Source of the DNA: Gammaproteobacteria bacterium | GTDB lineage: Bacteria; Pseudomonadota; Gammaproteobacteria; UBA6429; Thiohalophilaceae | NCBI GenBank assembly: GCA_026197095.1 | Contig: JAPHTF010000008.1 | Span: forward strand, 1 to 46,394 | Direction: 5' to 3' | DNA length: 46,394 nucleotides | In this document: positions 1 to 46,394 of the stretch, piece by piece | Layout: every line of letters begins with the position of its first letter | Position numbering within the stretch: position 1 is the stretch's first letter | Notes under the pieces: model-generated | What the model was told of the DNA's origin: nothing | Database searches by the model: none | What the model saw: only the letters and a program-made list of their open reading frames with translations | Position numbers and translations under genes: made by a program

Positions 1-1
1 A

Positions 2-1459: not shown

Positions 1460-1460
1460 C

Positions 1461-4889: not shown

Positions 4890-4907
4890 TATATTAAGGG
4901 ATTAATA

Positions 4908-7589: not shown

Positions 7590-7624
7590 ATTTATAGTTA
7601 ATAACGTATCTCAGGGAAGATAAT

Positions 7625-8527: not shown

Positions 8528-8544
8528 GGTTTAAAGGATTAACA

Positions 8545-11445
8545 ATGGCTCAAGAACAAAACAGATATGTTAAAAATAAAGACAAAAAAGCACAGTTTTC
8601 ATCTAACAATGAATTATTGGGCAGTGATTCTAAAATTAAGAAATATATCTTTTCATTAAAACAAGCCAATGTCTCTATATTAAGTCCATCATTTCTCTGC
8701 CCTGCACTAAAAAAACCAGATGAAGAGCTACGAATCATCATTCTTGCAGATAAATTATTCTTTAATACTTATAGTAATTCAGAAGGAAAGGACAAAACTA
8801 AAGCTGGCCCCGCATTATCAGGCGTTGTTAACAGATATTTAAAAATATCACCCTGGAGTAATATAGATAAAAGCTCTCATGCAAGCACTCCTATTTTCTC
8901 CAGTAATAGCGAAGCTATTGAAAATATTGAAGTTCATTATTTATGGAATATAAATGACATAAATAATAATACTATTATAAGAAAAAATTCTGATAAATCA
9001 GAAGATGTCGTATATGCGCAAATCCATTCTTCAGTTTCTCAAATGTATAAGAATGAAAATCTTATCTATGGTTTTGAAATAATATTAAAGAACCTGCCAG
9101 GTAATTATAATAATGAAGGCTTATTCAATATTTCATGGGTAAATTATAAACTAAATAATGAAGACAAAGAGGATGGTTTATTTTTCGAATTACAAGATCA
9201 ATATATAAACAAATTCAATAAAAATTATCGTATTGGATATAAATCACTCAGCTGTGATGTTTCAAATCACAGAAACCCAGAATTTTCTGATAATGAAACA
9301 GTAATAGAAAGCTACCATCCGGTATTTATATCAAATAAAGAATTATTAGATATTGGACATTTATCAGATGTACATGTTTCGTCCCGGCAACATTTATTCT
9401 CAAAGAGTAAAGCAAAATTAATTGATGGTGAAGCTGAATCCTTTACTTCTGAAGAAATCGGTCAATTAGTAAATACGAGTTATGCAACATTAAAAGATCT
9501 CATGACGCAAATGGGTTCTGATGTTGATTTACTCATTTTCACTGGTGATTTAATTGACTACAATAGAAATCTAAACACTAATAATTCAAAAATAAGTGAT
9601 GGTAATATAGTAAAAAGTAGTGAAATCTGGAAAATTCTTAACTTGGATAATTTAAATAATAAAGAGCTTTATCCTGTAGGAATTGATAATTTGGTCATGT
9701 ACGAATTATTCAAGTGGTATTATTCAGAATTCAAAAAGCCAATTATGCTCGTATCTGGAAACCATGAAGCATACACTCTACCCTATGGAATATCACCAAG
9801 AGTAAAATTATCTCGCTCATTGAAGAACACCTTTTTCCCTGGAAAACATATTTATGTATGTGATCCTGATGGAAATATTACATATGATGATGAGGGTTTC
9901 CCGGTTACAAAACATGTAAAATTAAGTGAAGATGAGGTTATAGAAAAATCAACTAATGAAGCAGCTGCTGACCTTGATGAAATTAATAAAAATCAAGATC
10001 CTGATATATATTTTGATCGCGCAAATGAAGGTATACCAGCGGATCATAATTTAACCATTAGTGAAGCAATTTTAATGTATGGTCCAGATTATGCGCGTGT
10101 AGTGATGGCTGCTGCAAGTGATGAGGGCGGAGAACGTAATTTCAAACCTGAAAATCTTGATTGGTTTTATCATATCTTTACTCCACTCAGTAGTTTTGTA
10201 TCATTTTATAATGAACAATCATTCATTAATCTTGGCTGGGGAGACAATGAAAAATTCATTGGTATTAAACAAGGATCATGGAGTTTAGGTGGATTCCTCC
10301 CTCGTTCAACTGAAAGTGTTTCAGATGAACAGCTAGCTATTTTAAAAAGCGGTTTAAATGAGAAAAAGTCGTGTAATATCCTTTGTAGTCACTTTACTTA
10401 TGCAAACTACAATACCCCGCACCCATTTTCTGAGGCAGGAGAAATTAACTATAATGATTTCATTAGCACACTAGGAAATCATGATTATGGCACATTCGAA
10501 AACAATCGATACTCTGTCTATAAGGAAATAATTGATGAAAATATTCAATATACCTTATCAGGGCATTCTCATCGCTCAGGCTTATATCAAAAAACTGATA
10601 ATAGTAACTTTCTTGGAAGAAAAAATATTACTATTAATGCAAAAAATGTTGATGAAAATAATCAATTTTCTCCAGGTAATGGATGCAGAATGTTGGTCGC
10701 AGCATGTGGTGGCCCAATTGCAGTTCAAAACCACCAAAATGAACTTTATAACTGGGGATTAGATTATCCTTCAGGAAATTTTATCAAATTTTCTGGCTCA
10801 AATGAGCATACAATTGGCATTAAGATACCTAATGTAAAACAATCACAACCACGATTAGCTGTGGCACTTGATTATGCAGATATATTCTTAAGAGATAAAG
10901 AAAAATCAGGATTGGTTGATTTGTTTATTTCTAAACTTGATGATGGACCATTTACTATTAAAATCAACCAAAAGGCTAATATTAGCGATATAAATTTTAT
11001 CGAAACTGTTTCCATACATTTTTATAAAGATTCAAAAGTATTAACCACGAGTGGAATTACTAAAAAAATTAATAATCACGAGTATTTATTCACACCAAAT
11101 GATGATATTGAGGATACTCTAAAAAAATTAAATATGAAAAAACCCGTAACATTTATATCTATCAAATGTAAAAATATTAATTATCATTCCTCATTTAGAA
11201 CATATAATACAAATACTTCATGGACTTACCCACTGGAATTTAAAAGCAGAAAGGATGTAGAAATCAAAAAATATGAAGAAGCCTTAGAAATGGCAGATTA
11301 TTATGATCCTTATGTAGCACAAGAGAATATTAAAAATTTAGAAAAGATTGAAGGCTATATTATAGCCAGGCATAGAAAGCATGGTGAAGTTCCAAATATT
11401 CGATGGTATAGTGAAACTTTCTCAAACGAGTACTCAGATGTTTAA
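8545..11445 (+). CDS. Large calcineurin-like metallophosphoesterase, candidate T6SS cargo/effector
   Basis: A 966-residue protein with a complete set of calcineurin-like phosphoesterase motifs: LSDVHV (D275, H277), TGDLID (D335), SGNHE (N406, H407), SH (H616) and GHSHR (H674, H676). These residues bind the two catalytic metals. About 200 residues are inserted between the GNHE motif and H616, much more than in a minimal enzyme. The first ~260 residues and the last ~190 match nothing I recognise; the C-terminal part is strand-rich. There is no Sec signal peptide, as expected for T6SS cargo. It follows the duplicated-module gene by 17 bp with an AAAGGA site, and its stop overlaps the next, exported gene by 8 bp. 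The bases are visibly more A/T-rich than the flanking rpoS cluster. The substrate is unknown. Effector status is inferred from context. Confidence 0.85.
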   Translation: MAQEQNRYVKNKDKKAQFSSNNELLGSDSKIKKYIFSLKQANVSILSPSFLCPALKKPDEELRIIILADKLFFNTYSNSEGKDKTKAGPALSGVVNRYLKISPWSNIDKSSHASTPIFSSNSEAIENIEVHYLWNINDINNNTIIRKNSDKSEDVVYAQIHSSVSQMYKNENLIYGFEIILKNLPGNYNNEGLFNISWVNYKLNNEDKEDGLFFELQDQYINKFNKNYRIGYKSLSCDVSNHRNPEFSDNETVIESYHPVFISNKELLDIGHLSDVHVSSRQHLFSKSKAKLIDGEAESFTSEEIGQLVNTSYATLKDLMTQMGSDVDLLIFTGDLIDYNRNLNTNNSKISDGNIVKSSEIWKILNLDNLNNKELYPVGIDNLVMYELFKWYYSEFKKPIMLVSGNHEAYTLPYGISPRVKLSRSLKNTFFPGKHIYVCDPDGNITYDDEGFPVTKHVKLSEDEVIEKSTNEAAADLDEINKNQDPDIYFDRANEGIPADHNLTISEAILMYGPDYARVVMAAASDEGGERNFKPENLDWFYHIFTPLSSFVSFYNEQSFINLGWGDNEKFIGIKQGSWSLGGFLPRSTESVSDEQLAILKSGLNEKKSCNILCSHFTYANYNTPHPFSEAGEINYNDFISTLGNHDYGTFENNRYSVYKEIIDENIQYTLSGHSHRSGLYQKTDNSNFLGRKNITINAKNVDENNQFSPGNGCRMLVAACGGPIAVQNHQNELYNWGLDYPSGNFIKFSGSNEHTIGIKIPNVKQSQPRLAVALDYADIFLRDKEKSGLVDLFISKLDDGPFTIKINQKANISDINFIETVSIHFYKDSKVLTTSGITKKINNHEYLFTPNDDIEDTLKKLNMKKPVTFISIKCKNINYHSSFRTYNTNTSWTYPLEFKSRKDVEIKKYEEALEMADYYDPYVAQENIKNLEKIEGYIIARHRKHGEVPNIRWYSETFSNEYSDV

Positions 11446-12565
11446 ATATTTATATTTAATTCTAATCATTTCATTTTCAGGAAACGTAATGGCAGATTCA
11501 TTAAAATCATATAATTTAGAAGAATTTAAGTCGCAATTAATAAAAACACATGATTCTTCATCTAACTTAATATCCAACTTTACTATTAGTAATTTCGAAT
11601 ACCCATCTGACATAATTAAAAATATAACAATTAAAAACACTAAATGGAAAAACATAACGGCAAATAACAGAATAATAACTGATGTTGAGTTCGAAGATTG
11701 TGCGCTAGAAGATATAAACTTCAAAAATACAAAATTTAAAAACATCACCTTTAAAAACTGCACTCTTAAAAATGTAATCATGAATGAAAGTTTTATTATT
11801 AACATGGTATTTATCAATTGTGAACTTCTTGGTTCCAGCTCTAACATTAATAACAGTTATATAAAATTAAAATCAGATACAATAAAATTCATAAACTCAT
11901 CATTAAAGAATATTGACTTTTATCAAAGTAAATCACATTTTATATTTGAGAATAGTAAGCTTAACGATGTTTCTGGATATGGCTTGTTGACTGATTCGAA
12001 AATAACAATTACAGATAGCAATATTTATGATATGGACTTCAGCAACTCAAAACTCACTTCAATAAAAATTAAAAATAGTATCATCAAAGATTCAAAAATA
12101 AATAACTCTACAATCTATACGATAGACTCAGAAAACAACATCTATGATAGCTTTCCAATTACCGACATAAGTATGGGTAAATCATTATCATCCAATAACG
12201 ATCAGCAATTAACAATTGGAGGCAATATCAAAATAATAAAAATAAGTAACTGCAAAGGATATAAAGATCTTTACTTAGGTGAACTAGATTTTGAAACTAT
12301 AGATATTAACAATTGCAAAACTCCAGATTTTACAGCGTTTGATTCAACTGGAGAAAGAATGTCAATTAATGGTTTGGATGCATACAACCTTAATTTAAAT
12401 AGAATTAAGATAAAGCAATTAAACTTAAACAACATTTCTGTCGAAAATAAGCTATATAATAAAGATGCTCAAGTAAACCAATACAATGCTAGCGGTATCA
12501 CGGTTAATAAAAACATAAAGAGAAAAAGTAACGGTGCAAATTTTGAGATAGTAAATACTAATTAG
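11438..12565 (+). CDS. Exported pentapeptide-repeat protein, candidate immunity partner of the phosphoesterase
   Basis: I choose the ATG at 11438, which overlaps the phosphoesterase stop by 8 bp and gives 375 residues. The open frame extends upstream to 11381 but without support. From this start the protein begins MFKYLYLILIISFSGNVMA, a textbook Sec signal peptide with likely cleavage after VMA. The mature part is built of five-residue repeats with a central F or L and frequent N/D in the fifth place (INFKN, TKFKN, ITFKN, CTLKN), best at about residues 50-140. This implies a right-handed quadrilateral beta-helix. No lipobox or second membrane segment is seen, so it should be periplasmic. Overlap with a signal-less putative toxin gene is the classic layout of a T6SS effector with a periplasmic immunity protein. 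That role is inferred. Confidence 0.8.
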   Translation: MFKYLYLILIISFSGNVMADSLKSYNLEEFKSQLIKTHDSSSNLISNFTISNFEYPSDIIKNITIKNTKWKNITANNRIITDVEFEDCALEDINFKNTKFKNITFKNCTLKNVIMNESFIINMVFINCELLGSSSNINNSYIKLKSDTIKFINSSLKNIDFYQSKSHFIFENSKLNDVSGYGLLTDSKITITDSNIYDMDFSNSKLTSIKIKNSIIKDSKINNSTIYTIDSENNIYDSFPITDISMGKSLSSNNDQQLTIGGNIKIIKISNCKGYKDLYLGELDFETIDINNCKTPDFTAFDSTGERMSINGLDAYNLNLNRIKIKQLNLNNISVENKLYNKDAQVNQYNASGITVNKNIKRKSNGANFEIVNTN

Positions 12566-12567
12566 TA

Positions 12568-12587
12568 TAAGTGTAAAAGTTTACTTA
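12568..12587. terminator. Weak imperfect inverted repeat between convergent genes
   Basis: TAAG-TG-TAAA faces TTTA-CTTA with a 2-nt loop, at the convergence of the pentapeptide-repeat gene and rpoS. It overlaps the rpoS stop. The stem is entirely A/T-rich, so terminator function is uncertain. Confidence 0.25.
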
Positions 12588-13579
12588 ATTAACGCATCTA
12601 CCGAAAAACCTTCTTTTTCAAGTATCTCTCTTAATTTGCGTAAGGCTTCAATTTGTATCTGTCTGACCCGTTCGCGGGTTACTCCGATACTGTTCCCTAC
12701 TTCTTCTAAAGTTGAGACATCATAACCATGCAAACCAAAACGCCTTGTAACGACTTCACATTGTTTTTCTGACAGTTGTCCTAACCAGTTTTCTATATTA
12801 TCTTTAACATCATTATCTTGTAACAATACGACGGGATCAATATTATTTTCATCTGGGATGGCATCGAGTAATGATGTTTCAGAATCAGGACCCATTGGGC
12901 TATCAACAGAAGCCGTACGTTCATTTAAACCCAACATGCGCTTAACATCTTTGATGGGCTTGTCGACCATTTCGGCAATTTCTTCAGGGCTGGGTTCGTG
13001 GTCAAGTGTTTGCGCAAGATGTCTTGCTGCACGTAAATAGATATTAATTTCTTTTACAACATGTATCGGCAATCGTATTGTACGCGTTTGATTCATTATT
13101 CCACGCTCAATAGTTTGTCTGATCCACCATGTTGCATACGTTGAAAAACGAAATCCTCTTTCTGGATCAAATTTTTCTACTGCTCGAATTAAACCAAGAT
13201 TGCCTTCTTCTATTAAGTCGAGTAACGCTAATCCCCGGTTAAGATAGCGACGCGAAATTTTTACGACCAAACGCAAATTACATTCAATCATTTTCTTACG
13301 GGCAGCTTCATCACCTTTTAACAGTTTACGCGAGTAATAAACTTCTTCTTCTGCAGTCAGTAAAGGGGAAAAACCAATCTCGTTTAGGTATAAGCGCGTT
13401 GCGTCAAGTTGACTCGCTGGAATAGCACCGGCAGAGAATGTTTTTTCGTCTTCTGCGATTTCTTTTTCTACTGATTCATCATCAATATCTTCATCGTCGT
13501 CATCAAGCAATAAGACATCTTCTGATTCAATTATTTCATCGCTTTCGGCGTTGTTTTTATTATTTTTTGTTTCCGCCAT
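12581..13579 (-). CDS. rpoS: RNA polymerase sigma factor RpoS (sigma-38)
   Basis: Stationary-phase and general stress sigma factor. The 332-residue protein starts with an acidic stretch ([13 protein letters not shown]) followed by region 1.2 ([20 protein letters not shown]). Region 2 has [30 protein letters not shown] and [17 protein letters not shown], and region 4 ends with [28 protein letters not shown]. The conserved place downstream of nlpD separates it from RpoD and RpoH. Only 26 bp separate it from nlpD, so, as in related bacteria, its main promoter may lie inside nlpD. The T6SS operon converges on its 3' end. Confidence 0.97.
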
Positions 13580-36700: not shown

Positions 36701-37251
36701 GCCGCATGCAGATAATCTTCCTCATTTTCACGACCAGTTCTTTGCAGCTCAAGATAAAATCTATCGGGAAAATGCTGACACCAGTCATTTAGCCGAGTCG
36801 AAGCTAATTCTGTGTTTTCACTTAACAAGGCATGACCAATATCACCGATGCGGCCGCCCGACAATGCAATTAAACCTTCGGTATTTCCGGCAAACCAGCT
36901 CTTTTGCAACATGGGAATGCCACGGTGTTGGCCTTCGGTATACCCTTTTGATACAAGCTGGGTGAGATTGAGGTATCCGGTGTTGTTTATGCACAGAAGC
37001 GTCAGTTTAGTGGGTTGAGTAGAATCATCTTCGCTCGTGACCCAGCAATCAACTCCCACGATAGGCTTTACACCCGCGGCCTGACAAGCCCGGTAAAATT
37101 TGACCAACGCAAACATATTGCTCTGATCGGTCAAAGCAACTGCTGGCATTCCCGCCGCCGCTACCGCTGCAGCAAGGGGCTTGATGCGCACAACACCATC
37201 AACAATAGAATATTCGGTATGCAGGGAAAGATGGACAAACGATTCTGACAT
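33778..37251 (-). CDS. dnaE: DNA polymerase III subunit alpha
   Basis: Catalytic subunit of the replicative polymerase. The 1157-residue protein starts with a PHP domain (FVHLSLHTEYSIVDGVVRIK). It carries the polymerase active-site motif MPDFDVDFCMEGRDRVIDYV and VGPGRGSGAGSIVAYAL. YGVILYQEQVMQIAQVLANY and GYGFNKSHSAAYALVSYQTA follow. The OB-fold (VAGLVVGMRVMTTKRGDKMA) and a C-terminal region with ICLGEEWQVHP complete it. Full length for the family. Confidence 0.97.
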   Translation of the reverse strand: MSESFVHLSLHTEYSIVDGVVRIKPLAAAVAAAGMPAVALTDQSNMFALVKFYRACQAAGVKPIVGVDCWVTSEDDSTQPTKLTLLCINNTGYLNLTQLVSKGYTEGQHRGIPMLQKSWFAGNTEGLIALSGGRIGDIGHALLSENTELASTRLNDWCQHFPDRFYLELQRTGRENEEDYLHAAVDLALKHNVPVVATNEVRFISAEDFDAHEARVCIHDGRTLDDPRRPKLYSDQQYLRSPEEMVELFKDIPSAIENTIEIAKRCTVELTLGKNYLPDFPIPEGLTIEQFLEDESRKGLEKRLHQLFDTQADDYEEIRKKYYDRLQIELDVINNMGFPGYFLIVADFIRWAKENDVPVGPGRGSGAGSIVAYALTITDLDPIKYDLLFERFLNPERVSMPDFDVDFCMEGRDRVIDYVSRTYGRDKVSQIITYGSMAAKAVIRDVGRVLSHPYGFVDRIAKLIPFEIGITLDKALEQEEQLQELYNEDEDVAGLIDLAKSLEGIVRNAGKHAGGVVISPSKLTDFTPLYCEEDASNLVSQFDKDDVEAVGLVKFDFLGLRTLTIIDWAVKTVNKNKQKKGEALVDIAAIPLDDEATFDLLKATNTTAVFQLESRGMKDLIQRLQPSEFEDIVALVALFRPGPLQSGMVDDFINRKHGRARVIYPHPDLESILKPTYGVILYQEQVMQIAQVLANYSLGAADLLRRAMGKKKPEEMAKQREIFTKGAVARDVDEKTATYIFDLMEKFAGYGFNKSHSAAYALVSYQTAWLKAHYPSEFMAAVLSADMDNTDKVVTLIDDCGEMKLKVEPPNVNLCEHRFTVDDGAIIYGLGAIKGVGEAAIEGVITERQNNGEFKSLFDFCQRVDLRKVNRRTLEGLTMAGAMDVFKQHRSTIMATLPDALKIAEQKSRDAQAGIQDMFGMAVEADDGHLSGPENYSVQKDWSEELRLANEKTTLGLYLTGHPINRYLPELKQFVSGRLVELKPTKNQTVIVAGLVVGMRVMTTKRGDKMAFLTLDDRSGRMEMAVFSEEFNANRENLAKDKLIVASVEVSIDDYSGGFKMRAKEIYDISQARERYAKSLTVTVDHNHAANGFIHNLQKVLTPFKEGFCPVVVDYHKADASAEICLGEEWQVHPTDELLNRLRETMGDKQVNVVYKS

Positions 37252-37454
37252 CAGGGTAGTTTGAGATTTATTCCCTTTATACGCAAGGCAGAAAACGCTG
37301 AATCCAGCAAAATTTTATTAAAAATAATTGTCTTTTAACACTGAGCCTAATATGAGCAAAATATGAGCAATGAGTAGCTTAATTTGTATCTAAAATTTCA
37401 TATTCTCATATTACAATTTTTACTCTTACTCTTTTTTTAAATATCACAAGCACA
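37252..37454. promoter_or_regulatory. dnaE-asnB intergenic region with four AATATGAG-type sites
   Basis: An 11-bp unit AATATGAGCAA is repeated twice in tandem (37349-37370). Two inverted copies, TTCATATT and CTCATATTA, lie at 37397-37413. The outer copies form a 9-bp inverted repeat 48 bp apart. This region should hold the dnaE promoter and the end of the asparagine-synthase operon. No clear terminator was seen. Confidence 0.45.
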
Positions 37455-39473
37455 TCAGGACTGCCAGCCAAGTTCATGTGCTTTAGCTTGTGCTTTTGCC
37501 GGCACATTATCCGCAATAAAATGTTGGTGCAAAACCTGTACACCAATCATATGATTAATGATTGCATCAAGCTGAACCTGGGTTGAAACAGGCGCGTCTT
37601 CGGACTCATGCAATGCAAATAAAGCTTTAACACCTTCTTTATCCAGCAAACCCGCATTGTCGATTGCTTCGTCAGAAAGATATTCATCTGCCAGCTTTTT
37701 CATCGCTTGCCATTTTTCAGGATCGGTATGCGCCGGCGGTGCCATAAAAGCAAATTTTTCTCGCTCATAAAGGGTCTTGGGCAAAACCCCTTTCATCGCT
37801 TCACGCAATACATACTTTTCAGTTTTGCCTTTGATACGCATTGAAGGTGGAATCTGGCAGGCGAACTCAGCAAGGTGATGATCAAGAAACGGCGGTCGTG
37901 CTTCCATGGAGTTGGCCATATCAACACGATCACCACCCCAGGTGAGAATTTGACCTTCAAGCATGGTTTTAATCCAGACATATTGCGCTTTATCTAAGGG
38001 ATGACGTCCTTCAAGCATATTACCATCCAGTGCATTCGCTATGGCCTCACCAGGTTGATAAGTTTTTAGTTCATCACGTAATACTTTATTTAACAGCGCA
38101 GGAACATGCTGAGCTGAAGCTAACCACGGTTGTAAACAAGAAGGTGTAAAACCAACAACATTATTTAATGCCGCGTCACTGACTTCATCTTCAGCCAGCA
38201 TAGCGCCTTTAAATAATTTATTGGCTTCAGCCAGCATGCCTTCCCATTCAGCACGTTCAGCAGCAGACAGAGTATCCATACCATGTAAAAACATGTCGCG
38301 GCGAAATGCAGGATAGCCGGCAAACAACTCATCCGAACCTTCACCGGTAACAACCACTTTATAATTAGCCTTGTTTACATGACGACTCATAAGTAACTTT
38401 GCAACACCAAGCGTGTTATAGATAGTGCGTTCGGTATGCCATAAGGTTTCAACAAAATTATCATAAAGATGATTTGCTTTGAGTAACATTACATCCTGAT
38501 CAGCGCCAACTGACTCTGCCATTTCACGTGCTATCGGTGTTTCATCATAATCACTGTCATCAAAACCAATGGTAAATGCTTTCACAGGGGATTGCTGGCT
38601 GGCTGCTGACATACCAAGAATTGAACAGGAATCGATTCCACCTGATAGATAACAGGCAACGGGTACATCAGCTTCAAGTCTTAATTGCACTGCTTCAAGA
38701 AGTTTTTCTTTCACGCCATTAATATAAAAGTCTTCATCATTGGAATCATTTACTTTTCGCTCTTCAAGCAAGGGAAAATCCATGTCCCAGTAACGTTGTT
38801 CAGTAACAGAAAACTTGCCATGATTTCTTTCTATAATAACGGCATATCCGGGTTTAACCTGGTGAATGTTTTCAAATGCTGTTGTACCCGGCACCATGGT
38901 TTGCATTAACTGATGATACACACCCTGTGCATTAAATTTTCTATCTACATCCGGATCGGCAAAGACAACTTTTAACTCTGAACCAAAAACAATCTTGCCA
39001 TTCGTTTCAGTCCAGTACAAAGGTTTAACACCAAAACGATCGCGTACTAACATAAGCCGATCATGTGTTTTATCATAGAGTGCAAATGCAAATTCACCAC
39101 GTAAATGTTGCAACATATCTTCCAGTCCATAACGGGGATAAAGATGCAGTACTAACTCGGAATCACTCTTGGTAGAAAAACGTGCACCATCAAGCGTTAA
39201 ATTTGCACGAAGTTTTTTATAATCATAAAACTCACCGTTATGTGCTAACAGTAAATTATCATCCGCAGAGACAAAAGGTTGCCGGGCACGATTCTCGTCC
39301 AGATCAATAATGGAAAGTCTCGCATGACTAAAACCCACACCCTGCCCTTGCAAAACTTTATAACCAAAACCATCAGGACCACGATGGTATTGAATTGCTG
39401 CCATATTGACTAACAGTTGTGGATCAATCGTGTTATCAGGATTGCTTTGAAAAATACCGGCTATGCCACACAT
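37455..39473 (-). CDS. asnB: Asparagine-synthase-family glutamine amidotransferase
   Basis: A 672-residue class II amidotransferase that adenylates a carboxylate and converts it to an amide with ammonia from glutamine. MCGIAGIFQ exposes the nucleophile Cys2, and glutamine-pocket residues appear in ARLSIIDL, AHNGEFYDY and TKSDSELVLH. The synthetase domain has the PP-loop YLSGGIDSCSILG (SGGIDS at 277-282). It is longer than E. coli AsnB (about 554 residues), with extra sequence at about 400-470 and at the C terminus. It is the last gene of the carbamoyl operon, 36 bp after the carbamoyltransferase. A related enzyme makes the terminal amide of the osmolyte NAGGN. I infer that this one amidates an N-carbamoyl amino acid; plain asparagine synthesis is the alternative. 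Confidence 0.88.
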   Translation of the reverse strand: MCGIAGIFQSNPDNTIDPQLLVNMAAIQYHRGPDGFGYKVLQGQGVGFSHARLSIIDLDENRARQPFVSADDNLLLAHNGEFYDYKKLRANLTLDGARFSTKSDSELVLHLYPRYGLEDMLQHLRGEFAFALYDKTHDRLMLVRDRFGVKPLYWTETNGKIVFGSELKVVFADPDVDRKFNAQGVYHQLMQTMVPGTTAFENIHQVKPGYAVIIERNHGKFSVTEQRYWDMDFPLLEERKVNDSNDEDFYINGVKEKLLEAVQLRLEADVPVACYLSGGIDSCSILGMSAASQQSPVKAFTIGFDDSDYDETPIAREMAESVGADQDVMLLKANHLYDNFVETLWHTERTIYNTLGVAKLLMSRHVNKANYKVVVTGEGSDELFAGYPAFRRDMFLHGMDTLSAAERAEWEGMLAEANKLFKGAMLAEDEVSDAALNNVVGFTPSCLQPWLASAQHVPALLNKVLRDELKTYQPGEAIANALDGNMLEGRHPLDKAQYVWIKTMLEGQILTWGGDRVDMANSMEARPPFLDHHLAEFACQIPPSMRIKGKTEKYVLREAMKGVLPKTLYEREKFAFMAPPAHTDPEKWQAMKKLADEYLSDEAIDNAGLLDKEGVKALFALHESEDAPVSTQVQLDAIINHMIGVQVLHQHFIADNVPAKAQAKAHELGWQS

Positions 39474-39509
39474 AAAAAAATATAAACCTCGGAATTAGTA
39501 AGTAAAAAA

Positions 39510-40559
39510 TTAAAAACGTACAAGACTGGACATTAGCGCCATGCGTGCAAAAACAGCACCGCGTGCCTGGGCGAAATACCAGTTATGTTCGGTATCATCC
39601 AGGTCTGTTGATAATTCTTCACCACGTGCTAATGGATGAAGAATGATGGCTCCTTTTTTTAAAGGCGACGATTTACTCAGTTTATATTCAATACCATGTT
39701 CTTCATAAGTATTGCCTACCCAGGCGATGGCATTAATATAAACCACATCAATATCAGGAAGCTCTGGTTCTAACTCCCTACTGACACGTATATTCAAACC
39801 TTCTGCTTCAAGCTCTTCACGTTGGTCCTGGCTAAATGATTCAGTCGTATTGCAAATAATAACGACTTCCTTAATGGCCTGGCTAATCCGTGAGAGGAAT
39901 AACAATAAACTTCGAACCGTTCGCATGCGTCCTGGATTACCAATAATGCCAATCGTAATTTTTTTATCATCACTGACTTCATTGCTCATCAGTTCAGGTC
40001 GCCATTTGAAAATGGCATACATGTCGGCTAAGGCCTGGGTAGGATGTTCGTCAGTACCATTACCGGCATTTATGATAGGTATCCGTAATGCTTCCAACAT
40101 TTCATATATTGCTCTTTCATTGGAATCACGTAGTACCACAACATCACCATAGTGGTTCATCATTTCGGCAACATCTTTTAATGATTCACCCTTGGCAATA
40201 CCTGTAGTGGATGGATCGGTAATAGAAATAATATCCCCCCCGAGTCGATGCCAGACACTTTCAAAAGAAAGCCGGGTACGCGTACTGGGCTCATAAAATG
40301 CGCTAATCAGAATTTTTCCTGTTAATGGAAACTGACCAAAGCTCTGCTGAGTTTCAAACTTTGCAGAAAGTCGACATAATTGAATCAGTTGTTCACGACT
40401 AAATTGGCGTGCAGAAATAACCGAGTGGTTAGCAAGCTCAGCAATGGCAGCAAAGTCCTCGTCAATTTGCTCCATTAACGCAAGTGGTTGCTCAATACCT
40501 TCTGTCCAGTTTTCAGCTTCTACCGGTTCTTCAAGTTTGGGATGTACTTTTTTTACCAT
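39510..40559 (-). CDS. Aspartate/ornithine carbamoyltransferase-family protein with altered acceptor site
   Basis: A 349-residue carbamoyltransferase with an extra N-terminal leader of about 45 residues. Carbamoyl-phosphate residues of ATCase are kept: PSTRTR (92-96), KGES (K123), R144, EHPTQ (H172, Q175) and MRTV (R213). By hand alignment to E. coli PyrB, the aspartate-binding R229 and Q231 correspond to A277 and A279 (YINAIAW), and HPLPR becomes HPLARGEE. The acceptor is therefore probably not aspartate. Its start overlaps a 40-residue membrane peptide gene by 7 bp, and asnB follows. No regulatory subunit gene (pyrI) is present. Calling it housekeeping PyrB would be risky; I infer carbamoylation of another amino acid. 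Confidence 0.85.
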   Translation of the reverse strand: MVKKVHPKLEEPVEAENWTEGIEQPLALMEQIDEDFAAIAELANHSVISARQFSREQLIQLCRLSAKFETQQSFGQFPLTGKILISAFYEPSTRTRLSFESVWHRLGGDIISITDPSTTGIAKGESLKDVAEMMNHYGDVVVLRDSNERAIYEMLEALRIPIINAGNGTDEHPTQALADMYAIFKWRPELMSNEVSDDKKITIGIIGNPGRMRTVRSLLLFLSRISQAIKEVVIICNTTESFSQDQREELEAEGLNIRVSRELEPELPDIDVVYINAIAWVGNTYEEHGIEYKLSKSSPLKKGAIILHPLARGEELSTDLDDTEHNWYFAQARGAVFARMALMSSLVRF

Positions 40560-40675
40560 AATTGACCTTTTATCCAGTCCTTAATCCATAAAATAATTAA
40601 AACAATTGGCGCGATAATCGTGATTGAAAGTGCAATCGTCACCATGACACTGAGAAACTCGGATGACACCATCAT
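40553..40675 (-). CDS. 40-residue single-pass membrane peptide
   Basis: A short gene whose ATG overlaps the symporter stop in an ATGA (40672-40675) and whose TAA lies inside the carbamoyltransferase start, a 7-bp overlap. The product begins MMVSSEFLSVM, has one membrane helix of about 22 residues (VTIALSITIIAPIVLIILW) and a charged end, IKDWIKGQLW. Coupling at both ends argues that it is translated. It may be a small subunit or stabiliser of the symporter, by analogy with other small transporter companions. I know of no named family for it. Confidence 0.72.
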   Translation of the reverse strand: MMVSSEFLSVMVTIALSITIIAPIVLIILWIKDWIKGQLW

Positions 40676-42126
40676 GAAAATTTCACTCCTGCCTGCTTAT
40701 TTGAAATTTCATTTAACCTTGCCCATTCAAACTGTTCTGGTTTTAACCACATACTGAAAAAAACAACGGCCATAGAAATGATTGCTGAAACCAGGGCCGC
40801 CACATAAAAACCAATCGCAAAATATGCCCATAAGCCAAGTACCGTGCCTGACAGCATCGCAATAATCGCACCGCTCGATGAGGCTTTTTTCAGATAGAGT
40901 CCGGCAATGATGGGCCAGATCGTGCTGGCAACAAACGCGCCAGTGAAATACAGCATAGATGCAAGCGTGGTTAAACGCGGTAAACAAAGTAACCAGGTAA
41001 TCATACCCAGCAAGAGCACAACCCAACGTGCCGCTTTACGTAACTCTTCTTTATTCGCATCAGGACGAATATGGCCACGGTAAATATCCTGTAAAACAAG
41101 GTCACTTGTTGCGGCCAGTAATGAATCAAGACTTGATGCTAAAGCTGAAAATACGATGATGAAAACCAGCACGGCTCCACCAAAGCCAAGTAATTTCGCT
41201 GCCACCATGGGGCCAACCATATCAGCGGCCGGAATATTTAAATTTAATGCTGGTGTTGCCAGTGCAATAAAACCCGCAACAATTGGAATCGGCATCCAGA
41301 AAATACCGGCAATCATATAAGCTTTGAAACCGACATCCCTTCGAAATGCAAAGGCACGCGACCACCAGACATTGGAATGAAAGATCTCCCCTACCCCAAA
41401 AAGTAAATTATTGAACAGGAACATAATGGCTGCAGGCATGAGCAGGTTTAATAACTCGGGACGCTCTTCTAATACAGCTAGATGCATGGGTTCAAAACCC
41501 ACCCTGTCTATCGCCAGCCAGGCAAGCAACACGATACCTACCAGGATGATAATGGTCTGAACAAAGTCAGTACCAATAACGGCACGCAAGCCACCGAGCA
41601 TTGTATAGGTGACACAAATAGCCAGGATGACACTCATCCCAAGCTGGTAATCAATACCTGTTAAGGCATTGATTAGTACGCCCCCTGCCATTCCTAAACT
41701 GATTAACCAGCCAAGACCATAAAAAAGTGAAATAACAAGAAATACTCGCCATGCCGTTTTTCCATAACGTAAACGAATAAAATCACCACTGGTATAACCA
41801 TTTGGCATTAACTCTTGTATTCGCCTGGCTAAAGGAGCAAACAACATTAAGCCAACTGAACCTAATGAATACCCCAGCATGCCCCAGATTCCCAGCTGCA
41901 ATGCTAATTGTGGTGCCGCCATCGTAGTGTTACTGGTCACCCAGGTGGCCATCGCGGTTGCTATACCCAGCGCCATACCGACATTGCGTCCTGCCAGCAT
42001 AAAGTCATCAAGTTGTTTTGCTTTACGTCCCCATAACCAGCCAAGAAAAATCCACAGCACACTGAAAATAGCCAGGATTAGCCAACCGGTATTAGCATCA
42101 AGCACCGCTGAGTTAACAGTGTTCAC
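40672..42126 (-). CDS. Sodium:solute symporter (SSSF) of the carbamoyl operon
   Basis: A 484-residue permease with about 13 helices. The sodium symporter hallmark lies near the N terminus (DDFMLAGRNVGMALGIATAM, then ATWVTSNTTM). MLGGLRAVIGTDFVQTIII and FSALASSLDSLLAATSDLVL follow. It recalls the urea/ureide-type branch of the family, which would suit an N-carbamoyl substrate, but this is only an impression. The GTG start overlaps the amidase stop (GTGA), and its own stop overlaps the 40-residue peptide gene. Transport of the compound handled by the operon is inferred. Confidence 0.88.
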   Translation of the reverse strand: MNTVNSAVLDANTGWLILAIFSVLWIFLGWLWGRKAKQLDDFMLAGRNVGMALGIATAMATWVTSNTTMAAPQLALQLGIWGMLGYSLGSVGLMLFAPLARRIQELMPNGYTSGDFIRLRYGKTAWRVFLVISLFYGLGWLISLGMAGGVLINALTGIDYQLGMSVILAICVTYTMLGGLRAVIGTDFVQTIIILVGIVLLAWLAIDRVGFEPMHLAVLEERPELLNLLMPAAIMFLFNNLLFGVGEIFHSNVWWSRAFAFRRDVGFKAYMIAGIFWMPIPIVAGFIALATPALNLNIPAADMVGPMVAAKLLGFGGAVLVFIIVFSALASSLDSLLAATSDLVLQDIYRGHIRPDANKEELRKAARWVVLLLGMITWLLCLPRLTTLASMLYFTGAFVASTIWPIIAGLYLKKASSSGAIIAMLSGTVLGLWAYFAIGFYVAALVSAIISMAVVFFSMWLKPEQFEWARLNEISNKQAGVKFS

Positions 42127-42872
42127 AAGACAGCTACCTGTTTTATTTCTTTAACGGCCTCTTCAGTTGTCATGACCCGCGCATAACGATCACGAATTGT
42201 TTCAATGGTAGCGTTATGTAATTCAGGTGTTACCGAGGCACAGGCATCATTAATCATTGTGGTATAAAAACCGCGATCACAGGCATCTCGCACTGTGGTC
42301 GATACACATTCGTTAGTGTAAACGCCACAAATAAACAACCCTGTTATACCCATGTTACGCAAGATGTATTCAATATTTGTTGCGTTGAAGACACCACTGG
42401 CTGTTTTATTAATAATGAGTTCATCGTATTTGGGAGCGACTTCAGGCAGGAACTCGGACTCTTTAGAACCTGGCGCGGCATGCAAGTGAAGCCTTTTATG
42501 ACCCGGACTTCTATCACGTCCATCCTGGGTCATCGACACAATACGGGGATGAATCACTTCGAGTTTTTGATCACGAAAACGGTCCTGAAGTCGCCTGACA
42601 TTAGGCAATACAACATGATCAAGTCGCTTGAAATAGTATTCCTGCGCTTCCCTGGGTACTCCAGATTTTTCAGCATCAGCAAAAACACCAAATCCCGGTG
42701 CAGCATCAAGATACTGAAGATCAATAACCAGAAGCGCCGTTTTATGTTCCTCTATGGATTCAATAATACCCGGGGCTTCGGTTATCGATTCCCGGTAATT
42801 ATCTTCAAGTGGATCAACATGCAAAAAATCTTGATTGTCGATATTGAGATCTGTTTTCTTAAAGTCCGTCAT
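42123..42872 (-). CDS. Isochorismatase-family cysteine hydrolase (amidase)
   Basis: A 249-residue cysteine hydrolase. The catalytic triad is visible: D51 in ALLVIDLQY, K156 in IINKTASGVF and C189 in GVYTNECVSTTVRDA. Relatives include nicotinamidase, N-carbamoylsarcosine amidase and ureidoacrylate amidase, all cutting amide or carbamoyl C-N bonds. An N-terminal leader of about 40 residues is unusual. The start overlaps the M20 hydrolase stop and the end overlaps the symporter start, so three genes are coupled. Here it may deamidate the imported or recycled compound (inference). Confidence 0.9.
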   Translation of the reverse strand: MTDFKKTDLNIDNQDFLHVDPLEDNYRESITEAPGIIESIEEHKTALLVIDLQYLDAAPGFGVFADAEKSGVPREAQEYYFKRLDHVVLPNVRRLQDRFRDQKLEVIHPRIVSMTQDGRDRSPGHKRLHLHAAPGSKESEFLPEVAPKYDELIINKTASGVFNATNIEYILRNMGITGLFICGVYTNECVSTTVRDACDRGFYTTMINDACASVTPELHNATIETIRDRYARVMTTEEAVKEIKQVAVL

Positions 42873-44113
42873 AGCTGTCCTCCGGCAATACGATACAGAG
42901 TGTTTAATGCCACGTTGGCACCTCGCTCGATATCATCCATATCGGTCCATTCCGCAATCGAATGGCTTCGTCCATCTTTACTTGGAACAAAGATCATCCC
43001 GGCCCGGGTAATATTTGCCATTATCTGGGTATCATGGGCTGCACCACTGGCCATTTGTAGAAAAGGGACTTTGAGTGACTTACAGACGTTTTCGATAGTC
43101 TCAACGATTCCAGCATCACTTTTGACCGGAGCAATCTCACTCAGTACGCGAAAATCAAACATCAGTTCATATTTGCGTGCGATAGCCGAGAGGGATTTTC
43201 GAAAGGCATTAGCAAGATCATTAAGGACTTCTGGATTGGTATCGCGCGCATCCAGAGAAAATTCTACTTTCCCCGGGATAACATTTGCCGCACCGGGACT
43301 TATTTCTACTCGCCCTATTGTTGCTACACTTCTTGGGCTACCATTCTCATCCAGTATTCGTTGTAGCTGGGAGGCAAATGCGCTGAGCCCCATAAAGGCA
43401 TCTTTACGCATATCCATGGGGGTGGTGCCAGCATGATTAGCTGTTCCGGTTAAGGTGATATCCCATTTGAATAAGCCAGCAATCGCATCAACATTACCAA
43501 TGCTAATACCCATGTTATCCAGCATCGGGCCTTGTTCAATGTGCAGTTCAAGAAATGCGAGTATCGACTCAGGATTGCGTTTAGCATGCAAGGCATTCAT
43601 GGCATCAAGACCAATATTCTGCATAGCATCAATTAAACTCACACCATCAAGATCCGATGCATTAACAATTTTTTCTGGTGTTAACATACCCGCAATGGCT
43701 TGCGAGCCTAGCATGCCGCCAAAGCGGCCTTCTTCATCACTAAAGGCGATGGCTTCAAGTGGGTAATTCACTTTCAGTCCTTGTTCTTTAATACAGCGCA
43801 AACATTCCAGCGCAACAACCACACCCAGTGCCCCATCAAGGTGGCCCGCAGCGGGAACAGTATCAATATGTGATCCCATCACAACAGAAGGTTTTTGTTC
43901 ATCCCATAAGTAACGTGCATGCAAATTCGCCGCACCATCCTGGTAAAAATCCAGCCCGGCTTCTTCAGCCTTTTTAATAAACCATTTACGCCCTTGTATA
44001 TCGCCATCACTGAATGCCATGCGATAGATACCATAATCATCACCACGGCCAATGGCGGCCAATGCTTCAATATCCGCCTGTAATCGTTCTCTGTTGATAT
44101 TTAAATTTTCCAT
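42869..44113 (-). CDS. M20-family N-carbamoyl-L-amino-acid/allantoate amidohydrolase
   Basis: A 414-residue zinc hydrolase of the hydantoinase/carbamoylase branch of M20, which removes an N-carbamoyl or ureido group as ammonia and carbon dioxide. Metal-site motifs are GSHIDTVPAAGHLDGALG (H82, D93), SDEEGRFGG (E127, E128), LHIEQGP and a final PSKDGRSHS. The dimer-lid segment TGTANHAGTTPMDMRKDA, with the substrate-binding His, and ASGAAHDTQIMA are also intact. It overlaps the amidase gene by 4 bp (ATGA) and begins 7 bp after the FN3 membrane protein gene. The substrate is not fixed by sequence. Confidence 0.92.
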   Translation of the reverse strand: MENLNINRERLQADIEALAAIGRGDDYGIYRMAFSDGDIQGRKWFIKKAEEAGLDFYQDGAANLHARYLWDEQKPSVVMGSHIDTVPAAGHLDGALGVVVALECLRCIKEQGLKVNYPLEAIAFSDEEGRFGGMLGSQAIAGMLTPEKIVNASDLDGVSLIDAMQNIGLDAMNALHAKRNPESILAFLELHIEQGPMLDNMGISIGNVDAIAGLFKWDITLTGTANHAGTTPMDMRKDAFMGLSAFASQLQRILDENGSPRSVATIGRVEISPGAANVIPGKVEFSLDARDTNPEVLNDLANAFRKSLSAIARKYELMFDFRVLSEIAPVKSDAGIVETIENVCKSLKVPFLQMASGAAHDTQIMANITRAGMIFVPSKDGRSHSIAEWTDMDDIERGANVALNTLYRIAGGQL

Positions 44114-44120
44114 AATCCAC

Positions 44121-44672
44121 TCAGCTTATTTTTTCCCTGTTCCCTTTGAGGATAAATACCAACATCGTAAAAAAAACGATGGCACCTGCTATAAAAAACA
44201 AAATGGCATTTTTAAGGGGATGATGAGCCACTGTTACCTTAATAACATTGCTCAGGTGTGAACGATCATTTGCACTTGTTGCAATACGATAAAAATAATC
44301 TCCATTGGCTTTGCCACTTATAACACTGGCTAAATCATAACCTTGATTGATTATTTTAAATGATTTGAAATCTTCGCTTCTTGATTCCTGAAGTTGAAAT
44401 GGTGTTGCTTCAGCAGTTTCACTTGTCCAGCGCAACTGGTAATAACCTGCCGTAGCTATTTGAACATCACTGCTAAGTTGCACATCTTTGCCAGATTGAA
44501 CCGCGTGTAATGTTTGATTTAGAGTGAAAAACAGAATTCCGCTAAAAAATAGTGCAAAAATTGTTTTGAATGAAATATTTCGATCAGGCAGGAGGTAGCG
44601 GCTGCACCCATAAAATGGAAGGAACAGAAGCCTGTCCCATCGGACAATCCGGCTTGTTACCTTTAATATCAT
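44121..44672 (-). CDS. FN3-like membrane protein of unknown function
   Basis: A 183-residue reading frame. A hydrophobic leader at about 34-55 (FKTIFALFFSGILFFTL) is followed by a beta-rich domain resembling fibronectin type III (GYYQLRWTSETAEATPFQLQ, then GDYFYRIATSAND). A C-terminal membrane helix (AILFFIAGAIVFFTMLVFIL) ends in a short basic tail. The segment before the leader is unconvincing, and the true start may lie downstream at a non-ATG codon. It is 7 bp from the M20 gene and is probably the operon's first or second gene. I do not recognise a function. Confidence 0.6.
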   Translation of the reverse strand: MILKVTSRIVRWDRLLFLPFYGCSRYLLPDRNISFKTIFALFFSGILFFTLNQTLHAVQSGKDVQLSSDVQIATAGYYQLRWTSETAEATPFQLQESRSEDFKSFKIINQGYDLASVISGKANGDYFYRIATSANDRSHLSNVIKVTVAHHPLKNAILFFIAGAIVFFTMLVFILKGNREKIS

Positions 44673-44766
44673 CTAAACCCAAAGTATCGACATCTTCACT
44701 GTATTTAAGAAAATAAGGTATTAACAAAGCAAAATTAAACAGTGAAGAACTATAATTTGAACTCAT
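44584..44766 (-). CDS. Possible 60-residue protein at the operon head
   Basis: An open frame beginning MSSNYSSSLFNFALLIPYFL and ending SVPSILWVQPLPPA overlaps the 5' part of the FN3 gene by 89 bp in another frame. It has no recognised domain and no strong ribosome site. Either it is a short leader gene whose stop couples to a late start of the FN3 gene, or it is chance. I lean only slightly towards its being real. Confidence 0.3.
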   Translation of the reverse strand: MSSNYSSSLFNFALLIPYFLKYSEDVDTLGLDDIKGNKPDCPMGQASVPSILWVQPLPPA

Positions 44767-44801
44767 TATGCCATAACTAAAAATTTATTTCATTTTAGAT
44801 A

Positions 44802-44829
44802 ATGATGAGAACGTGCAATTTCTCATCAT
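44802..44829. promoter_or_regulatory. 28-bp perfect dyad, probable operator upstream of the carbamoyl operon
   Basis: ATGATGAGAA, 8 nt, then TTCTCATCAT: both arms match perfectly over 10 bp. It lies 36 bp upstream of the possible first start (44766) and 130 bp upstream of 44672, downstream of the HNH gene. No U-run follows on the minus strand, so an operator fits better than a terminator. Confidence 0.55.
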
Positions 44830-44941
44830 AGTGGTAATCCATTTGGAATATACCTTTAAATTTCGTTGGTATTTTTTTTAAAAGCAGTAGTAAATTAAGC
44901 GTCAGCCATGTTTTTACTAAGAAATAAGAAAAAGAAAAGAT

Positions 44942-45538
44942 TTATTGCATGATAAGCGTATCATCTCGCTCATTCCATTCATTACCAAAATGACTAAACT
45001 GCATTTTTAAAAATGCCATTTGATCACCGAGAATTTTTCGGTTTCGTAATACTAAATATTCAGCAACATTAGGAATATAAGGTACAGCCAGTAATTTCAT
45101 ATTTAAACTATCAAGTAAGCGATCACCTTTATGCGTATTACAGCGTCGGCATGCAGTCACAACATTGGACCAGATATCCTGCCCACCTTTTGAAAGTGGC
45201 TTAACGTGATCGCGGGTGAGTAATAAAGATTTCATTGATTTGCCACAATAGAGGCAAGTGTGATGGTCACGTCTAAATAACTCGCGATTGTTTAATGGTG
45301 GGATAGCCTTTTTATGATGGCTTCGTCGATTTTCACCTTTTACCGCAATAATTGAATTTACGCTAAGAAGTGTTTTTTGCCCATCACAGCGTGAAAATCC
45401 TCCATGCAACAAGAAGCTATTTTCGCCTGCTGTCCAGGCGACACAATCACGCGCATAAATATTGGCCGCTTCCTGCCAGTCTATCCATTTTACAGGTTGC
45501 CCTGTTACATCTAATCTTAAAATAAGCGGTAAAGTCAT
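44942..45538 (-). CDS. HNH endonuclease-domain protein
   Basis: A 198-residue protein with a complete HNH fold: zinc-knuckle Cys pairs in CLYCG (C95, C98) and CRRCN (C130, C133) around the catalytic TRDHVKPLSKGG (D110, H111) and the Asn in DIWSNVVTA. The N-terminal half (LRLDVTGQPVKWIDWQEAAN) is typical of a widespread group of single-gene bacterial HNH proteins of unknown role. It is not next to a methyltransferase or phage genes. It begins 62 bp after rnhB and is separated from the carbamoyl operon by a dyad. Confidence 0.9.
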   Translation of the reverse strand: MTLPLILRLDVTGQPVKWIDWQEAANIYARDCVAWTAGENSFLLHGGFSRCDGQKTLLSVNSIIAVKGENRRSHHKKAIPPLNNRELFRRDHHTCLYCGKSMKSLLLTRDHVKPLSKGGQDIWSNVVTACRRCNTHKGDRLLDSLNMKLLAVPYIPNVAEYLVLRNRKILGDQMAFLKMQFSHFGNEWNERDDTLIMQ

Positions 45539-45600
45539 GCGTTATGCCTCTTTTACTGCAGCAAATTAATCTTTTTGATTTATTACTCGTTAATGTATTT

Positions 45601-46221
45601 TTATACTGTTGCTAAAACCTTTTTAACAGGAGCAAACGTTCGTCGATGAATTTTGGTAACGCCAAGTTTCTGTAAAGCTTCAATATGGACCTTGGTCGGG
45701 TACCCTTTGTGTTTAGCAAGTCCATAACCCGGATACACTTCATCCATTTCAACCATTTCATTATCACGTGCGACTTTTGCAATGATAGACGCGGCACTAA
45801 TACACGCTACTCTATCATCTCCTTTTACAACCGCTTCTGCTTTAATAGTGATTCCCACAGGAACACGATTACCATCAATCATGACATAGTCAGGCTGTTG
45901 ATTAAGATCATTAATGGCTATTGTCATCGCCTGTAAACTGGCCTGTAATATATTGATCCTGTCAATTTCATCAACATCTACCCGGGCAATTGCCCATGAA
46001 AGTGCCTTTTCTTTAATCTCTTTTGCCAATACTTCCCGTCGTTTTTCGGTAATTTTTTTAGAATCCATCAATCCTTCAATCGGATTATCAGGATCAAGAA
46101 TCACCGCTGCGGCGACTACGGGCCCCGCTAATGGCCCCCGCCCAACTTCATCAACACCAGCCACAAACTGACCGCGATCAGACCAGTCCAAAATGGGCGG
46201 CAGAGGCTGTTTTTTAACCAT
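45601..46221 (-). CDS. rnhB: Ribonuclease HII
   Basis: Cuts RNA in RNA-DNA hybrids and single ribonucleotides in DNA. The 206-residue protein has the active-site Asp-Glu in [20 protein letters not shown]. It also has [45 protein letters not shown] and [20 protein letters not shown], all RNase HII signatures. In many gammaproteobacteria it directly precedes dnaE; here the carbamoyl operon lies between them. Confidence 0.97.
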
Positions 46222-46394
46222 AAAATTAAATGTCCTGTTATCAGTTCTGGTTGCGAGGTAAGAATATGATCTAGCATACCCGCAAAACTGACCTAATTGC
46301 TATGACTAAAGTCCCAGAAAACAGCCCATTCATGCCTATCTTATTGATTTTAAAATACGAGAATGCGATCATAAAGCCTATCGCACTTTAATTA

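Follow-up and report, generated by a model that had tools for sequence, protein, structure and literature searches.

N-carbamoyl-glutamine amide (CGA) is a salt protectant that, in the literature passages accessible to us, was described in 1991 from Ectothiorhodospira marismortui. The closest system with assigned genes is the N-acetylglutaminylglutamine amide (NAGGN) pathway (AsnO, Ngg, an aminopeptidase and a MarR repressor; PA3458-PA3461), in which an enzyme of the AsnB family amidates the terminal carboxyl group of an N-capped glutamine; according to the accessible part of PMC8070244, the MarR regulator represses this operon in P. aeruginosa. The transcarbamylase superfamily comprises, besides aspartate transcarbamylase (ATCase, PyrB), several recent additions, among them the ureidoglycine, putrescine and diaminopropionate transcarbamylases, whose acceptor is set by the 240s loop (accessible part of PMC4581275). 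Here, we analyzed a 46,394-nt stretch of DNA (the window; assembly GCA_026197095.1, contig JAPHTF010000008.1) from a member of the Thiohalophilaceae (Gammaproteobacteria), focusing on a minus-strand operon at 37455-44672 that encodes a carbamoyltransferase (CT) and an AsnB-like amidotransferase. Judging from its gene content and co-inheritance, from the occurrence of its core genes in the reported producer and from the residues that its enzymes keep or lose, we estimate a probability of about 0.8 that this operon makes, imports and recycles CGA.

The seven genes run in one direction, from 44672 to 37455, with neighbouring frames overlapping in four pairs (by 4, 4, 4 and 7 bases) and the AsnB-like gene starting 36 bases after the CT gene. 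In order of transcription, the features are:

44577..44749, minus strand: structured leader RNA outside Rfam, with a 10-bp outer stem and three more helices (from covariation)
44121..44672, minus strand: seventh operon gene, encoding an N-terminal hydrophobic helix, an FN3-like beta domain and a C-terminal transmembrane helix, N-terminus uncertain (from conservation and fold match)
42869..44113, minus strand: M20 hydrolase of the N-carbamoyl amino acid hydrolase type, proposed to remove the carbamoyl group and yield glutamine (from TIGR01879)
42123..42872, minus strand: isochorismatase-fold amidohydrolase, proposed to hydrolyse the terminal amide (from PF00857 and an Asp-Lys-Cys triad)
40672..42126, minus strand: sodium:solute symporter (SSS), proposed to import or recover the solute (from PF00474, above cut-off)
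40553..40675, minus strand: 40-aa membrane peptide between symporter and CT, probably a small symporter accessory peptide (from co-occurrence with the symporter)
39510..40559, minus strand: third carbamoyltransferase (CT), 349 aa, proposed L-glutamine N-alpha-carbamoyltransferase (from residue pattern and ATCase fold)
37455..39473, minus strand: AsnB-like amidotransferase of 672 aa, glutamine-dependent and proposed to be the N-carbamoyl-L-glutamine alpha-amide synthetase (from TIGR01536 and kept active-site residues)

A first-pass annotation of this DNA had listed a coupled operon, and its gene list, coordinates and families proved right, with two reservations: no family matches the 40-aa peptide, and the seventh gene (44121-44672) had been left out.

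In the pathway that we propose, in which each reaction, the reaction order and the transport specificity are predicted, CT would move the carbamoyl group of carbamoyl phosphate onto the alpha-amino group of L-glutamine, and the AsnB-like enzyme would then amidate the alpha-carboxyl group of carbamoyl-glutamine at the expense of ATP, with a second glutamine as amide donor, in the manner of AsnO in NAGGN synthesis. The sodium symporter and the 40-aa peptide would recover leaked or external solute, perhaps with the involvement of the FN3-like membrane protein. Upon a drop in osmolarity, the isochorismatase-fold enzyme would take off the terminal amide first, leaving the carbamoyl group to the M20 carbamoylase, and glutamine would be regained. 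This scheme shares with the NAGGN pathway the amidation of a capped glutamine, a hydrolase within the operon, a MarR regulator near many loci and an amide osmolyte as product. By contrast, the cap would here be a carbamoyl group placed by a transcarbamylase, whereas NAGGN arises by acetylation and ligation by Ngg, and the operon adds a symporter and two other hydrolases.

The third carbamoyltransferase and its predicted acceptor

The window's own genome (3.1 Mb, 201 contigs) carries three OTCace genes, CT among them. The other two are PyrB and ArgF, which score above the curated cut-offs for ATCase and ornithine transcarbamylase (OTCase), respectively; the lack of a second pyrB, part of an outcome that the first-pass annotation had named as refuting its own reading, is thus not the case here. 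Exactly three OTCace genes, one of them CT, were found in nine of the ten named genomes searched; the tenth, Thiohalobacter, gave four OTCace rows, two of which resemble one split gene. The typing of the other genes as PyrB and ArgF covered the window's own genome. CT scored under the cut-off in all 17 NCBIfam families that it matched, with 191.3 bits versus a cut-off of 236.95 for the ATCase model TIGR00670, 189.2 versus 263 bits for the ATCase model NF002032, 96.5 versus 280.85 bits for the OTCase model TIGR00658 and 84.7 versus 500 for the putrescine transcarbamylase model. Its predicted structure has the ATCase fold (predicted local distance difference test, pLDDT, 84.1), with human ATCase 5g1n as the top structural match. 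A search of the plasmid collection at E 1e-40 returned no CT relative.

In ATCase, the beta-carboxyl group of aspartate is held by R229 and Q231 in the RxQxER loop, while R167 and K84 of the neighbouring subunit help to position the alpha-carboxyl group (accessible part of PMC4581275). Work on plant ATCase agrees with the roles of R167 and K84 and places the lysine within reach of both carboxylates (PMC7878868). Across 80 CT homologues, the equivalents of S52, T53, R54, T55, R105, H134, K84 and R167 are kept without exception, and that of Q137 is kept in 79. By contrast, the ATCase arginine never occurs at the R229 position (Ala in 57, Ser in 16, Thr in 6, Lys in 1) and the glutamine never at the Q231 position (Ala in 76, Val in 2, Leu in 1, Ser in 1), a following tryptophan being invariant; the loop reads NxIAW instead of RxQxER. 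As regards the superfamily motifs, the SxRT positions are kept in 80/80 and HPxQ retains its His in 80/80 and its Gln in 79/80, whereas HxLP ends in Ala in 80/80, turning HPLP into HPLA. The OTCase motif DxxxSMG is absent from all 18 aligned CTs, which range from Ectothiorhodospira to a spirochaete metagenome-assembled genome (MAG). Thus, CT shares with PyrB the unknotted transcarbamylase fold, most carbamoyl-phosphate residues and the R167 and K84 equivalents, and differs from the true PyrB encoded elsewhere in the genome in its loop, in HPLA and in a Gly at the S80 position. A role for CT as a second ATCase was rejected on the motif loss and the sub-cut-off scores. CT probably belongs to the same superfamily as the ureidoglycine, putrescine and diaminopropionate transcarbamylases, and like theirs its new acceptor specificity would be set by the 240s loop; compared with the putrescine type, which is the one that our comparison covers, its loop sequence also differs.

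The retention of the alpha-carboxyl residues together with the loss of R229 and Q231 leads us to expect an acceptor with a free alpha-carboxyl group and no acidic side chain, which would point to glutamine, carbamoylated before the alpha-amidation. The residue pattern therefore lends support to the order that the first-pass annotation had suggested, glutamine carbamoylation followed by alpha-amidation.

The same logic could lead to another product, if CT carbamoylated another neutral or unusual alpha-amino acid such as asparagine and the AsnB-like enzyme amidated it, yielding an uncharged ureido-amide osmolyte that is not CGA, or not CGA in all lineages. Such an alternative draws on the fact that the residues speak only for a bound alpha-carboxyl group and against an anchored acidic side chain, and on a distribution of the cluster far wider than the single reported producer. 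However, CGA is the sole carbamoyl-amino-acid amide named in the literature passages accessible to us, and it comes from a species holding the gene set; moreover, the two specificity positions are without the ATCase Arg or Gln in every homologue, from Ectothiorhodospira to the spirochaete MAG. We regard a different product as unlikely.

Co-inheritance of the gene set and the reported producer

A CT orthologue of at least 60% identity is present in 14 of the 58 relatives, the window's own genome included. Among the 13 orthologous loci from relatives, 12 carry the seven genes in the same order (the AsnB-like gene runs off the contig in one), and the thirteenth is cut by a contig end. The weaker CT relatives L053 (38%) and L054 (32%) were left out of this count; neither has another operon gene at E 1e-8, L053 ending just past CT. 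Loci from named genomes were taken as the best 80 of 534 CT relatives; many are MAGs, the counts hold for these 80 and not for the rest, and they overlap with those above, several of the 13 orthologous loci being the same contigs (L040 and L055, for example). All seven genes occur together in 53 of the 80 named loci, in a different order in some, such as the spirochaete loci, and nine have the M20, amidase, CT and AsnB-like genes without the symporter. The AsnB-like gene is lacking in three, namely two contigs that end at CT and Thiorhodospira sibirica, where AsnB-like (1316.8 bits) and amidase genes lie elsewhere in the genome, unlinked to CT; no M20 gene was seen near CT, AsnB-like or amidase in T. 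sibirica, a genome-wide search for M20 not having been made. The linkage of these genes is far beyond chance.

Profiles for CT, AsnB-like and amidase (cut-offs E 1e-80, 1e-180 and 1e-60) each matched 23 of 369 genomes of the class, and the 23 are the same; the sample was taken as class Gammaproteobacteria because the E. marismortui genome (G366, with match coordinates identical to those of G058) is in it. The distance matrices of CT and AsnB-like over 68 loci correlate with r 0.793, a value reached in 0 of 1000 permutations and to which shared descent contributes. The NAGGN amidotransferase occurs in 21 of the 23 cluster genomes and in 145 of the 346 others, an enrichment in keeping with an osmotic context (ancestry not corrected for).

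The core set M20-amidase-CT-AsnB-like, without a symporter, is present in E. marismortui DSM 4180 (locus L080, record FOUO), so that the gene set is found where the first-pass annotation had proposed to look for it, in the reported CGA producer, and its absence there, which that annotation would have taken as a refutation, did not occur. DSM 4180 is reportedly the strain used in the 1991 work. The record FOUO is listed as E. marismortui DSM 4180 in Table 1 of PMC8877833, as far as the accessible part of that paper goes, and NCBI merges E. marismortui with E. mobilis. All seven Ectothiorhodospira loci (L073, L075, L077, L080, L081, L086 and L088) carry M20-amidase-CT-AsnB-like, with a MarR homologue upstream and then a divergent sucrose synthase; the two were typed at L080 as a MarR-type regulator and a sucrose synthase (1182 versus a cut-off of 810 bits). 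MarR homologues were found at 30 of the 95 loci searched, chiefly in Ectothiorhodospira and Thioalkalivibrio.

The amidase is lacking at 16 of the 80 named loci: eight of them open at the edge of a contig, one is that of T. sibirica, and seven remain. At E 1e-20, it was not found in seven of eight whole genomes searched (the eighth being T. sibirica), while two amidase-bearing controls were detected; the seven are Idiomarina, two Aliidiomarina, two Kangiella, a planctomycete MAG and a gammaproteobacterial MAG, and the three MAGs among them may be incomplete. The persistence of CT and AsnB-like without the amidase, and unlinked in Thiorhodospira, favours synthesis over scavenging. The alternative of the first-pass annotation, scavenging of ureido nitrogen, fits badly with this distribution; in such a route, ureido compounds would enter through the symporter and be broken down to ammonia by the two hydrolases, while asparagine synthesis would be of the usual kind and CT another ATCase. 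The operon does hold two hydrolases and a sodium symporter, and the curated relatives of its M20 enzyme include carbamoylases and allantoate hydrolases, as such a route would have it; yet the seven genomes without a detected amidase keep CT, AsnB-like and symporter, the Ectothiorhodospira loci have no symporter, and CT is devoid of the RxQxER residues of ATCase while a true PyrB exists. Scavenging was thus rejected as the main role, and we consider it very unlikely.

The AsnB-like enzyme exceeds the cut-off of the broad asparagine synthase model TIGR01536 (427.7 versus 267.1 bits) and remains under those of the E. coli-type AsnB model NF006949 (278.3 versus 499 bits) and of the NAGGN amidotransferase model TIGR03104 (299 versus 570.1 bits); the latter score ruled it out as a member of the NAGGN family. 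It displays the N-terminal Cys, the glutaminase residues and the SGGxDS loop of the AsnB superfamily, and C1, R49, N74, E76, D98, S234, G235, D238 and S239 of the glutaminase and ATP sites, in what we take to be the residue numbering of E. coli AsnB, are kept in 8/8 cognates. In the acceptor region, the E. coli stretch ETYDVTTIRAS corresponds to ERTIYNTLGVAK in 8/8 AsnB-like cognates compared. The window's genome encodes the NAGGN amidotransferase separately (G000:C102:613-2388, 936 bits), which suggests that the organism probably makes two amide osmolytes.

That CT is a duplicated ATCase or OTCase supplying pyrimidines or arginine under salt, with AsnB-like as an asparagine synthase and a linkage that is regulatory only, is an extremely improbable reading: the best family score of CT (ATCase, 191 bits), its ATCase fold and the TIGR01536 match of AsnB-like are what it can draw on, but they stand against the sub-cut-off scores of CT in every NCBIfam family matched, its missing ATCase and OTCase acceptor motifs, and the presence of CT as one of three OTCace genes in nine of ten named genomes.

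Several observations weigh against the assignment to CGA synthesis. The TIGR01536 cut-off that AsnB-like exceeds speaks for an asparagine-making enzyme. The residue argument for CT relies on alignment, the segment 280-284 of its model, inside the key loop, has a pLDDT below 50, and the carbamoyl-phosphate residue S80, contributed by the neighbouring subunit, is Gly in 18/18 aligned CTs; this position varies within the superfamily (accessible part of PMC4581275), and the genome's own PyrB has Ala there. The operon is patchy, as just one of seven further congeneric genomes has a close CT orthologue. The co-occurrence profiles were built from loci of operon-bearing relatives, and ectoine synthase, tried and discarded as a proxy for salinity, is not enriched in cluster genomes (2/23 versus 50/346). 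Since the set is found at all seven Ectothiorhodospira loci and not just at L080, the link to the producer holds at the level of the genus, not the species. The accessible part of PMC3857566 describes CGA as a minor solute; Raman did not show it in E. marismortui extracts, though its spectrum is missing from the reference library used. Two Thioalkalivibrio papers do not contain the word "carbamoyl", and their accessible parts name glycine betaine, in one of them also sucrose; the cluster is nevertheless present in T. versutus AL2 (L119), and CGA in Thioalkalivibrio may be minor, nitrogen-dependent or absent.

With somewhat more than even confidence, and less than we place in CGA metabolism as such, we favour a wider proposal, namely that CT represents a new type of transcarbamylase, an L-glutamine transcarbamylase marked by HPLA and the NxIAW loop, which would make CGA together with a dedicated AsnB-like enzyme; that CGA, once reported from a single organism, would be widespread in marine and haloalkaliphilic Gammaproteobacteria and in some Spirochaetes and Planctomycetes; and that the leader RNA would control the operon in the window's lineage and may sense salt, solute or glutamine. 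If true, genes would be assigned to a compatible solute, known since 1991, that had none in the literature we searched, the transcarbamylase family would gain a new acceptor, CGA would probably be widespread in saline and soda environments, and the CT/AsnB-like pair could produce CGA in a laboratory strain. T. sibirica, with its CT, AsnB-like and amidase genes, should then accumulate CGA; in the accessible part of PMC7824335, CGA is named as a possible solute of this species, no genes are given for it and no osmotic stress genes are annotated. In line with the first-pass annotation, whose author knew of no published gene set, we found no gene assignment for CGA in the open-licence literature, which was incompletely searched.

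Hydrolases, transport and membrane proteins

The M20 hydrolase exceeds the cut-off of the hydantoinase/carbamoylase model TIGR01879 (383.4 versus 204 bits), and its closest solved structure is the N-carbamoyl-L-amino acid hydrolase 3n5f. Nine active-site positions, metal ligands included, are kept in 63 or 64 of 64 sequences. An Asn is kept in 63/64 and an Arg in 64/64, which we take to be the carboxylate ligands of carbamoylases; if they bind the carboxylate here, the amide would have to leave first. It shares its fold, metal ligands and the Asn and Arg positions with N-carbamoyl-L-amino acid hydrolases including ErtE (N-carbamyl-L-glutamate amidohydrolase), and stays under the ErtE cut-off (376.2 versus 520 bits). 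At L113, L133 and L134, whose genomes gave no amidase in the search above, M20 is present at 46-51% identity, on the opposite strand in the two Kangiella, and in these genomes its role may differ.

The isochorismatase-fold hydrolase belongs to PF00857 and shares its fold and Asp-Lys-Cys triad, whose positions are invariant in 63/63 sequences, with biuret hydrolase, RutB and N-carbamoylsarcosine amidohydrolase. Its nearest curated families are biuret hydrolase and RutB, but it lies far under both cut-offs (81.2 versus 370 and 58.4 versus 377.95).

The symporter is above the cut-off of PF00474 and under that of TIGR00813, and occurs in 69 of the 80 named loci at 53-81% identity. Of these 69 loci, 67 also have the 40-aa peptide, which gave no family match and is probably a small accessory peptide of the symporter. 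Among the 11 peptide frames printed, six are exactly 40 aa and the rest are longer through upstream start codons. The T. sibirica locus L092 has a peptide match of 38% identity immediately ahead of CT (about 8885-9000), with no symporter match on the locus.

A conserved FN3-like single-pass membrane protein heads the operon (44121-44672). This 183-aa product gave no family match in profile searches, its FN3-like fold derives from weak structural matches (best E 4.6e-05), and as a conserved gene it precedes either M20 or the symporter. The leader RNA overlaps the upstream part of the frame, which leaves the start codon uncertain.

Leader RNA and neighbouring genes

In the window and in nine other loci of the 64 searched, the operon is preceded by a leader of 168 positions. 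The model was built from eight sequences, that of the window among them, and the covarying leader was noted in the window and at L055, L056, L057, L059, L062, L063 and L071. One and the same alignment served to derive the structure and to score covariation, in which 14 of 26 pairs changed on both sides, compared with a shuffled mean of 4.0 and at most 4 in slid controls. Further pair types gave a weaker signal (21 versus 17.5, reached by 6 of 500 shuffles). The single-sequence fold was not significant (z -1.41); support for the structure comes only from the comparative test. Rfam gave no match at E up to 1 in 37000-46394, placing the leader outside the known riboswitch and leader families, and at E up to 10 gave nine matches, all far under gathering scores. 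Under stricter filters, the leader was found in 6 of the 58 relative genomes, in one copy each and always at this operon; unlike the enzymes, it is lineage-limited. By eye, the helix CUGUUCC/GGGUGCAG may compete with a GCAG/CUGC pairing in a switch-like manner. L055 also has a cspA thermoregulator RNA (4238-4660; RF01766, 107.8 bits) a short way upstream of its leader.

A promoter scan gave 19 sites versus 20.0 in shuffles, hence no excess, whereas terminator-like sites were in excess (17 versus 7.1 in shuffles). Upstream of the operon, a protein with an HNH endonuclease domain (44942-45538; PF14279, PF01844) is encoded between it and a gene that is presumably RnhB-like. At the other end of the window (1-12600) lies what we take to be a type VI secretion-like cluster that includes a ClpV-type ATPase; next come a large protein, presumably phosphoesterase-like, and a repeat protein.

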